Assembly: GCA_002869845.2 (NCBI GenBank)
Contig: NEWS02000004.1
Coordinates: 110,347 to 174,346, forward strand
Reading direction: 5' to 3'
Length of the DNA stretch: 64,000 nucleotides
Source of the DNA: Nitrospira sp. CG24B
GTDB lineage: Bacteria > Nitrospirota > Nitrospiria > Nitrospirales > Nitrospiraceae
How positions within the stretch are numbered: the first letter of the stretch is position 1; each line of letters opens with the position of its first letter. Of this stretch, positions 5,053 through 8,392 are shown piece after piece. A program made the translations under genes and the position numbers. Below the pieces are notes generated by a model. It had not been told where the DNA came from. It searched no databases and saw nothing but the letters and a program-made list of their open reading frames with translations.

Positions 5053-6450
5053 ATGACCAGCGAACGGCATTTCAGGAAGAAGAACCTGTGGCGTGGACTC
5101 TTGAAACTGCTCTTAGGGGGCGCGCATGTGTTTGGGCTGTTTTCAGTCGTCGCCCTGTCGACTGCTGAAGCTCAATCGGGAAAGCCGGAAGGCCTGTACT
5201 ACAAGTCTTGGGCGATCATTATTGGGATCGAAAACTATGTCGTGGCTCCTCCCATCCCGGGAGCGATCAGTGATGCCAAGAAGGTGGCCGAGGCGTTTCG
5301 GCGGTTAGGGTTCGACGAGGTGGTCGAGTTCTACGATAAGGATGCAAGCTCGCGACGTCTGCACCAGTTGTTCAACGACATGTTGCCGAGAAAAGTTGGG
5401 CGCATGGATCGGCTCGTTGTGTTCTTTGCGGGCCATGCCGGGTCTATGCAGGATCCTGATGGGTACGATCGAGGGTATCTCGTGCCGTTTGACGCGCCGG
5501 TCAACAACGCCGCGAAGTCGATCACGGTTGAGCACTTAAAAGAATTTACGAGACGGTCGGCTTCCAAACACACGCTCCTCATTCTCGATGCGCCGGTATT
5601 CGGGTGGGAGACCACTGCGCCATCGGGACTGTCATTGGAAGGGCGTTTGGCTCCAGAATCGGAGACGGATCGGCGCGCAGTCCAAGTCATCAGCGCGGCA
5701 GGTAAAGGAGAGACCGCTGTTCGTGCTGAGAAAAGCAGTCGTTTTGTTGAGACACTATTGACCGGGCTGTCCGGTGCTGCCGATTTGGACGGAAACGGTT
5801 GGCTCATGGCTTCCGAGTTGGGGACCTATGTGGTGCGACAGGTTGAGGCGGCCTCCAATGGTGCACAACGTCCATCCAATCTACGCATCGATGGTGATGG
5901 AGACACGGCGTTGGTCGAAGGGCGGAGGTCGGCGTTTACGCTTGATGCCGGTCCTCGGACTCCCTCTGAGCGGCAACGGGAGGCGAAGGCGCACTACGAG
6001 CGAGCCTTCGCGCTGTTGCAGGAAGGGAAATCAGGAGAAGAAGCCTTAGAACGACTGGATCGCGCGATCAGTTACGATCCGACCTACGGCGATGCGTACG
6101 TGCTGAAGAGTTATGTTCGATTGGAAGTGCTGCCGAATCTCGACGAGGCCTTGGCGACCGGCCTTCTTGCGGTGAAATATGCGCCGGGGAATCCCGACTC
6201 GTTTTACACGCTGGGATTGATTCACGAAAAACGAGGCGAGTTTGCGGAAGCTGAAGCGGCTCTTCGACAAGCCTTGCTCGTGAACAACACCTATCAGGAT
6301 GTGTACTTCACATTGGGGACACTGTATGCCGATCATCTCAATGATCAGGCTAAATCGGTGGAGGCGTTTCGCCGGTATTTGGAGTTGGGCGGCACCCATC
6401 CTCGCGCCCGAGCCACTGTGAGTCAAGCTGATCGCATTTCCGCACCCTAA
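5053..6450 (+). CDS. caspase-fold (C14-like) protein with C-terminal TPR repeats; catalytic Cys position is Pro
   Basis: WAIIIGIENY, VVFFAGHAGS, LLILDAPVFG (canonical Cys replaced), DLDGNGWLMASELGTYV, TPR-like C-terminus. Confidence 0.8.
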   Translation: MTSERHFRKKNLWRGLLKLLLGGAHVFGLFSVVALSTAEAQSGKPEGLYYKSWAIIIGIENYVVAPPIPGAISDAKKVAEAFRRLGFDEVVEFYDKDASSRRLHQLFNDMLPRKVGRMDRLVVFFAGHAGSMQDPDGYDRGYLVPFDAPVNNAAKSITVEHLKEFTRRSASKHTLLILDAPVFGWETTAPSGLSLEGRLAPESETDRRAVQVISAAGKGETAVRAEKSSRFVETLLTGLSGAADLDGNGWLMASELGTYVVRQVEAASNGAQRPSNLRIDGDGDTALVEGRRSAFTLDAGPRTPSERQREAKAHYERAFALLQEGKSGEEALERLDRAISYDPTYGDAYVLKSYVRLEVLPNLDEALATGLLAVKYAPGNPDSFYTLGLIHEKRGEFAEAEAALRQALLVNNTYQDVYFTLGTLYADHLNDQAKSVEAFRRYLELGGTHPRARATVSQADRISAP

Positions 6451-6511: not shown

Positions 6512-8392
6512 TCAGCGAACCGTCTGGGATTGCGCGGATGAGGGCGTTTCGGAAGAGGTGAGCGAAGGAAGCGCGGTTAGGGCGAGTGAGGCGGCTGGAT
6601 CGTCCGGTTTGAGAGGGGGAAATAGCAGGGGCCGTTGCTCTTGATTGAACTGTGACTTTGCCGCCCAGGCGACTTTCTGGCGCACGTAGCCGGCGAGTTC
6701 TCCGAATGTGACAGTTCCGTTGCGGTTGGTGTCGGCCTCTCCTCGGAGCCCTTTCAAGAGGTAGTAGGTGAAGAGGCCATGGCGGTGGTGGTCGTCTTCC
6801 AGCCCCTTCGTCATGTCTTCGCCCCCGATCAGTCCGATCGTATGTCCTCCGCCAAGTTCCCAGCGGGGTGATGCGGGCTTTCCCTTGGTATCGCCGCGCA
6901 GTCTGGCAACCATGCCATCGAATAGGAAAATGATCTGTTTGGCCTTGAGTCTGGCGAAGGCGGACTCCAGATCAGTGAGTGGGTAAAGTCGCGTCGAGTC
7001 CCCAGCATTCCCGTCATACAGGGTCAGCAAGATGTCGCCGGATGGTGTGACCATCGCCTGTCCCGAAAAATAGACGATCACGACGGCATCCTTGGCCGCA
7101 TGTTGTGGGAGCCAGCCGTACAGTGTTTCGTGAATATCGGCGCGGAGCGCCTTCTGGTTGTGCAACAGCCGGACGTTGGACGGGGGCACACCGCCGAGCG
7201 ATTGAAAATAGGCGGCGACGGTCTCCGCATCCGTCGCGGCGAAGCGACGGGGCGTGAGCTTGGGATCGCGATAGGCGCCGACCCCGATCGAGACGAGGTA
7301 GGTCTGAGGCTGGTGAAAGCCCGGCGCCGGTGAGGGAATTTGGTTGACGTCGTCCTGGCCGATCCCGGCTGGGTGAATGGTCAACGAAAGGGTTTGGGAC
7401 GGCGCCTCGGCTCCTCCCGATTCGGCGACGGTGACATGGATCGCGGCCTGTTGTGCCTGCTTGGTCGGGGGGAGGGTCGCGATGAACTCGAGGGATTTTG
7501 TTTGGCCTGGTTGGAGCGGCGGGATCGGCAGTGTCGTGGCGGGGAATTGCTCGATGACAACCGGGGTTCCGGTGAGCGAAGCAGAGGCGCTCTCAATCAC
7601 TCTCGTTCCCGCATTGATAATATCCACACGCACCCGCACATGCTCGCCTCCTTCAAGAATCAGATTACTGTTCTCGTCGAGCAGCATCGCCTTAAATCGA
7701 AGAGCCTGTGATGGTGACGCCGAGGATGCGCCCACGCTTCCCCCCGGTGTCGGACTCAACTCGGTCGAGGAGGCGGTTTCCTGGCCGGTCACGGCTTGTC
7801 TGGCATCGAGCGAGACACGTGTCGCAAAATCGATGACGGTATCGCGGATGAAGGGGTCGATCAGATAGTTGCAGTTCTTGGAGAGCTGTTCAAGCCGCAG
7901 CCGTTCCTGGCGGGCAATTTTGATGTCCGTTTGACGGAGCAACGCTCCCTTTCGATCGTGGATGCGAGCGATGGCGTTGAGGTGTAAGACGGCAGGGGCC
8001 CGATCGTACAAGGCCTCCTTATTGAGGTCGAACGATGAATCGACGAGATCAACGTGAATGACATAATCAGGTGTGGCGGTATCGCTGGCGCTGTCGCCAA
8101 CCGTCGTGTTGAACGTTCGCCGAAGGCCTTCCCGTACGGCCTCCTGGAGTCGATCGCCCAGCGGAATTTCCTGGAGCTGTCCACAGGAATCGCTGTAGCG
8201 AATCGTCAGGTCTTTGATCGGTGGGGCCATGTCCAGCTTGGCGCTGACGGGCAACGGGTCCCCTAGTGGGGGAAGTTCAAGAGGTTTGACGCACGCGGCA
8301 AGGAGCAGCACGCAGAGAATCCACGCCCCTGTGACGAGCCTGATATGATTGAGTCGTTCTGTCGAAATCACCGCATGACCTATGGCGACCAT
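6512..8392 (-). CDS. lipoprotein with C-terminal degenerate caspase-fold domain
   Basis: LLLAACVK lipobox; CARDB-like middle; LVSIGVGAYRDPKLTPRRFAATDAETVAAYF; YFSGQA and FLFDGMV where catalytic His/Cys are expected; DTNRNGTVTFGELAGYV. Confidence 0.75.
   Translation of the reverse strand: MVAIGHAVISTERLNHIRLVTGAWILCVLLLAACVKPLELPPLGDPLPVSAKLDMAPPIKDLTIRYSDSCGQLQEIPLGDRLQEAVREGLRRTFNTTVGDSASDTATPDYVIHVDLVDSSFDLNKEALYDRAPAVLHLNAIARIHDRKGALLRQTDIKIARQERLRLEQLSKNCNYLIDPFIRDTVIDFATRVSLDARQAVTGQETASSTELSPTPGGSVGASSASPSQALRFKAMLLDENSNLILEGGEHVRVRVDIINAGTRVIESASASLTGTPVVIEQFPATTLPIPPLQPGQTKSLEFIATLPPTKQAQQAAIHVTVAESGGAEAPSQTLSLTIHPAGIGQDDVNQIPSPAPGFHQPQTYLVSIGVGAYRDPKLTPRRFAATDAETVAAYFQSLGGVPPSNVRLLHNQKALRADIHETLYGWLPQHAAKDAVVIVYFSGQAMVTPSGDILLTLYDGNAGDSTRLYPLTDLESAFARLKAKQIIFLFDGMVARLRGDTKGKPASPRWELGGGHTIGLIGGEDMTKGLEDDHHRHGLFTYYLLKGLRGEADTNRNGTVTFGELAGYVRQKVAWAAKSQFNQEQRPLLFPPLKPDDPAASLALTALPSLTSSETPSSAQSQTVR

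Follow-up and report, generated by a model that had tools for sequence, protein, structure and literature searches.

A conserved pseudo-caspase domain in a predicted envelope lipoprotein of Nitrospira

In the stretch of Nitrospira sp. CG24B DNA analysed here (64,000 nucleotides, hereafter the window, to which all positions refer unless stated otherwise), gene B encodes a pseudo-caspase lipoprotein of 626 residues (6512..8392, minus strand). Its caspase-fold domain is under purifying selection and carries neither residue of the catalytic dyad. We consider B to be an outer-membrane-anchored periplasmic lipoprotein whose C-terminal caspase fold is kept as a non-catalytic binding module, and put the probability of this reading at about one half. 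The modelled fold and architecture draw on the open reading frame, Pfam matches, orthologues from Nitrospira and an AlphaFold2 model; the outer-membrane location, the binding function and the involvement of Ca2+ are inferred.

Architecture and predicted structure of B

The protein begins with a signal peptide and a lipobox, LLAAC34 (residues 1-34; 8291..8392, minus strand), whose Cys34 is invariant in 67 orthologues; on these features B is a predicted bacterial lipoprotein. Three further regions follow on the same strand: an LptE/CsgG/PelC-like outer-membrane lipoprotein domain identified with AlphaFold2 and Foldseek (residues 36-205; 7778..8287), a CARDB-like Ig-type region (residues 229-345; 7358..7708) and the caspase-fold domain (residues 362-606; 6575..7309). 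The last matches Peptidase_C14 (PF00656) with an E-value of 2e-8 and 34.6 bits, above the curated cut-off of 21.4, and its predicted caspase fold likewise places it in this family. The CARDB match (PF07705, E 8e-4) falls slightly below its curated cut-off, and the model shows beta strands there. Thus the open frame, caspase fold, lipobox and CARDB-like region proposed from the sequence alone are all recovered. The closest match to B is from Nitrospira sp. RSF5 (97%); relatives that carry the gene are, where named, nearly all Nitrospira, including N. moscoviensis, N. defluvii and N. lenta.

Modelled from 67 orthologues and without templates, B folds into three parts with a pLDDT of 80; the N-terminus is of low confidence, as expected for a signal peptide. 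Foldseek places MALT1 closest to the caspase domain among solved structures in the PDB, with metacaspases and caspase-8 also among the best matches. The N-terminal domain modelled alone reaches a pLDDT of 90 and a pTM of 0.87, and resembles LptE, CsgG, PelC and the LPHT ring (E 3e-6 to 1e-4). As the TM-scores are moderate (0.4-0.5), we read this likeness as one of fold class, not of function. B shares a predicted N-terminal fold and a lipid anchor with the LptE, CsgG and PelC lipoproteins, but only 7-16% sequence identity, and no LptD, curli or Pel partner gene was found among the neighbours examined. Within this domain Cys70 and Cys174 are invariant in the 67 orthologues, and from their conservation a disulfide between them is possible.

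Residues 554-565 form an EF-hand-like loop (DTNRNGTVTFGE; 6698..6733, minus strand). It follows the DxN/DxD/NGxxxxxE pattern: D554, N556, G559 and E565 are invariant in 67 orthologues, and position 558 is either D or N. The loop is therefore kept, as the sequence-only reading had it, and Ca2+ binding is putative. The Pfam EF-hand match (PF00036) is weak (E 0.09), and a search for sequence relatives of B among solved structures returned only weak calcium-binding matches, to the loop. Three active caspases from the order carry the same loop, so we rejected it as a special trait of B.

The C-terminus of B is a mosaic (6512-6725): for residues 556-617, dS against the closest relatives is 0.23-0.67, versus 0.03-0.16 for the N-terminal parts. 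Nine extra residues at the very end are missing from most orthologues.

Loss of the catalytic residues and selection

The two catalytic sites read exactly as first reported: YFSGQA at the His site, with Gln445 (codon 7058..7060, minus strand), and FLFDGMV at the Cys site, with Met494 (codon 6911..6913, minus strand). Cysteine is found in none of 79 Nitrospira orthologues; eleven different residues replace it, mostly Met (23), Ile (15), Lys (13) and Thr (10), with seven others. At the His site Gln prevails (48), followed by Leu (20), His (8), Thr (2) and Val (1). The proposal that both catalytic residues are missing is hence accurate for the window copy and, for Cys, across the genus; eight orthologues retain His, and some residual constraint may persist at this site.

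Position 494 lies at the 98th percentile of variability within the caspase domain, in the top 2% of its columns. Around it, F491 is invariant, and D492 and G493 are invariant or nearly so. We infer that the catalytic constraint was released and that the constraint on the fold was kept. Selection on the gene was estimated from pairwise dN/dS (Nei-Gojobori): the pseudo-caspase domain gives about 0.10-0.15 against most close relatives and 0.21 for the most distant of ten; in most comparisons both other domains have higher values. Orthologues span nearly the whole genus, and 74 of the 80 loci contain B as one open frame.

These data bear on two other accounts of B. That it is a decaying pseudogene is scarcely credible: the gene is indeed broken in two close relatives (G007/L122 and G019/L128) and extra degenerate copies exist, but frames are not widely broken, the window copy is conserved at 92-97% identity, and a dN/dS well below 1 refutes decay for the B family. 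Chance decay was rejected on dN/dS and conservation together, in agreement with the earlier suggestion; with the invariant Cys34, the absence of Cys from all 79 orthologues also supports its picture of an envelope-associated pseudoprotease. Nor is it at all probable that B works by swapped chemistry, with catalysis taken over by a different residue of the former active site. In favour of this, one paralogue, C, carries Ser where the Cys would be and Arg in place of the His; in B the residues at position 494 include Ile, Met, Lys, Leu, Ala and Pro, and this variety, next to a His site that is mostly Gln or Leu, speaks strongly against it.

B belongs to a described kind. Of the caspase homologues in bacteria, 8.6% are pseudo-orthocaspases, and Alphaproteobacteria and Cyanobacteria account for 90% of these (Klemencic et al. 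2019, PMC6426788), and one cyanobacterial member, SyOC of Synechocystis, affects survival of oxidative stress (PMC7889975). Like these, B combines a caspase p20-like fold with a substituted His-Cys dyad and conservation in its lineage. Unlike them, it has a lipid anchor and, besides CARDB, an LptE/CsgG-like domain, and its sites differ: known pseudo-orthocaspases are mostly of Tyr-Ser types, whereas B has Gln, Leu or His and a freely varying Cys site. The YS type of Cyanobacteria and Rhizobiales (Tyr-Ser, YA or FS) does not describe B, as the Tyr-Ser pair occurs in 0 of 79 orthologues. With active orthocaspases (PF00656) B shares the fold, the domain length, the p10-side motif HGLFTYxLLxGLxGxAD and the EF-hand-like loop; it differs in lacking the catalytic Cys in all orthologues and the His in about 90%, so that it cannot be counted among them. 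Dyad loss in the phylum had already been seen in bulk: in the part of their 2012 survey that we draw on, Asplund-Samuelsson et al. (PMC3501461) give a dyad conservation of only 57% in Nitrospirae metacaspases, and that part describes neither the B family nor its architecture, age or selection.

Gene A, gene order and ancestry

Gene A (5053..6450, plus strand) converges on B, as the sequence-only reading noted, with 61 bp between the stop codons. It encodes a second pseudo-caspase of 465 residues with TPR repeats (PF00656 E 3e-16, plus a Pfam TPR match) that keeps His128 and has Pro181 at the Cys site. Its status as a pseudo-caspase holds for Cys, found in 0 of 30 orthologues and replaced by Pro or Ala, and does not extend to His, retained in 30 of 30 (GHA). 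A too is under purifying selection, with a pairwise Nei-Gojobori dN/dS of 0.14-0.18. About a third of the genus (L054-L063) has A orthologues that end after the caspase domain, at about 310-350 residues, without the TPR part. We also considered B as an anti-phage defence caspase and rejected this, as PADLOC returned no match for it; A matches the generic PADLOC caspase model over 124 of 453 positions.

The adjacency of the two genes is not conserved. Downstream of B, the neighbouring gene encodes a cytochrome c in 43 and a PPC-domain protein in 23 of 69 resolved loci (66 together); A stands there in two (L085 and L086, close relatives that match the window colinearly over 3.8 kb at 92%) plus the window itself. 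Upstream, a divergent HtrA gene is found in 69 of 70 resolved loci, at 0.2-5.8 kb. In sampled relatives, B adjoins HtrA and a cytochrome c/RodZ-like block, and A lies in a neighbourhood of its own, between acetyl-CoA synthetase and an LpoB/LPP20/COG3014 cluster. The record coordinates of a single-contig genome (G024) set the two about 3.1 Mb apart. In G019, B was apparently cut in two by recombination with a degenerate B copy, while A is whole. The rarity of the arrangement, the degenerate copies and this recombination event indicate that the A-B adjacency is young and unstable.

Several observations were made around the two genes. A degenerate extra copy of B (G000:C15:106937-107824, equal to L064:6591-7478, minus strand) lies about 2.5-3.4 kb before the first base of the window, as an open frame of 295 residues that is then broken; similar remnants in L066, L083, L072, L084 and L097 suggest that B was repeatedly duplicated and that the copy decays. 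The window at 1-1418 and L064:8003-11418 contain a cluster of LPP20, LpoB, a COG3014-like TPR protein and LPP20, which accompanies A, not B, in sampled relatives and is reminiscent of FlgO/FlgP/LpoB-type clusters of outer-membrane lipoproteins. Literature searches for LPP20/LpoB/COG3014 clusters, for LpoB together with caspase and for peptidase C14 of Nitrospira returned no directly relevant work. At 2216-2641, an ORF of 141 residues resembles a PIN-domain (VapC-type) toxin.

We then placed both genes in a tree of caspase domains (40 rows, some long branches among the active caspases), from which the two catalytic columns had been removed. A single clade with 99/99 support unites B and its paralogues C and D with homologues that belong to two further families of the order; no member has the Cys, and the loss in the B lineage is accordingly ancient. 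A falls on the other side, with the active caspases, and parsimony counts two losses of Cys. By this tree the loss in A is independent of that in B, and the two are separate pseudo-enzymes, not a recently duplicated pair. Paralogue C (L065:9215-11257, minus strand; G000:C15, about 183.2-185.3 kb) lies just beyond the window and has 680 residues and a B-like architecture; it is conserved in the genus, adjoins cytochrome c genes in the window's genome and is not recognised by the Pfam C14 model. At the level of the order, the neighbours of B homologues show no common block, apart from cytochrome c-like genes within family f2.

Could B act through another caspase? The sequence-only reading had joined A and B into a functional pair of pseudoproteases. 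Convergence at 61 bp, colinearity in the two close relatives, the exported look of both proteins and purifying selection on both are in keeping with such a pair; synteny overturns it as a conserved unit, and families f2 and f3 have B homologues without a clear A orthologue. A dedicated pair is thus improbable, and we regard the arrangement as local, recent, outside the mechanism of B and mostly an accident of rearrangement. Somewhat less improbable, though still unlikely, is that B regulates an active caspase of its own cell or serves as a decoy for it. Animal pseudo-caspases act as regulators, as cFLIP regulates caspase-8, and the window's genome does encode one intact small caspase (L180:896-1729, minus strand; G000:C15, about 1138.4 kb), with GHG and DACYSG motifs and followed by a TPR protein, the only one found there with both catalytic residues. 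A regulatory role in bacteria is also suggested in the part of the survey by Asplund-Samuelsson et al. cited above (PMC3501461). That caspase, however, is about 1 Mb from B. Moreover, a B homologue is present in seven genomes of the sister genus g3 that yield no match to PF00656 over the cut-off (best chance hit E 0.15); in two of them, single-contig and 99-100% complete, nothing caspase-like was found apart from this homologue. Caspase regulation is for this reason unlikely as the general role of B.

A caspase fold without cutting

The reading we prefer remains that of a lipoprotein with a non-catalytic binding module. In the mechanism we propose, the N-terminal LptE/CsgG-like domain would dock B to the outer membrane, on its inner face, or to a complex within the envelope, and the CARDB-like region would serve as a spacer. 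The pseudo-caspase domain, which Ca2+ at the invariant EF-hand-like loop may stabilise, would then bind but not cleave a partner, either a peptide or a protein. As the genus has several pseudo-caspase paralogues, the partners may be each other. More tentatively, the order-wide family and its paralogues might together make up a module of the Nitrospira envelope that senses or assembles without proteolysis; an LptE/CsgG-type domain would be its base, and the caspase fold, with its Ca2+-type loop, would sit on this base as an adaptor that binds peptides.

Discussion of caspase homologues in bacteria usually centres on proteolysis in cell death or defence. Bacterial pseudo-orthocaspases being a described kind, the novelty of B lies in its architecture, its order-wide age and the selection acting on it. 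In an order that comprises nitrifiers and their relatives, a caspase fold joined to an envelope lipoprotein has been kept without catalysis, including in genomes where no further caspase is detectable. Annotating genes of the B type as peptidases is therefore inadvisable. Altogether, the use of the caspase fold without cutting becomes directly testable in bacteria.
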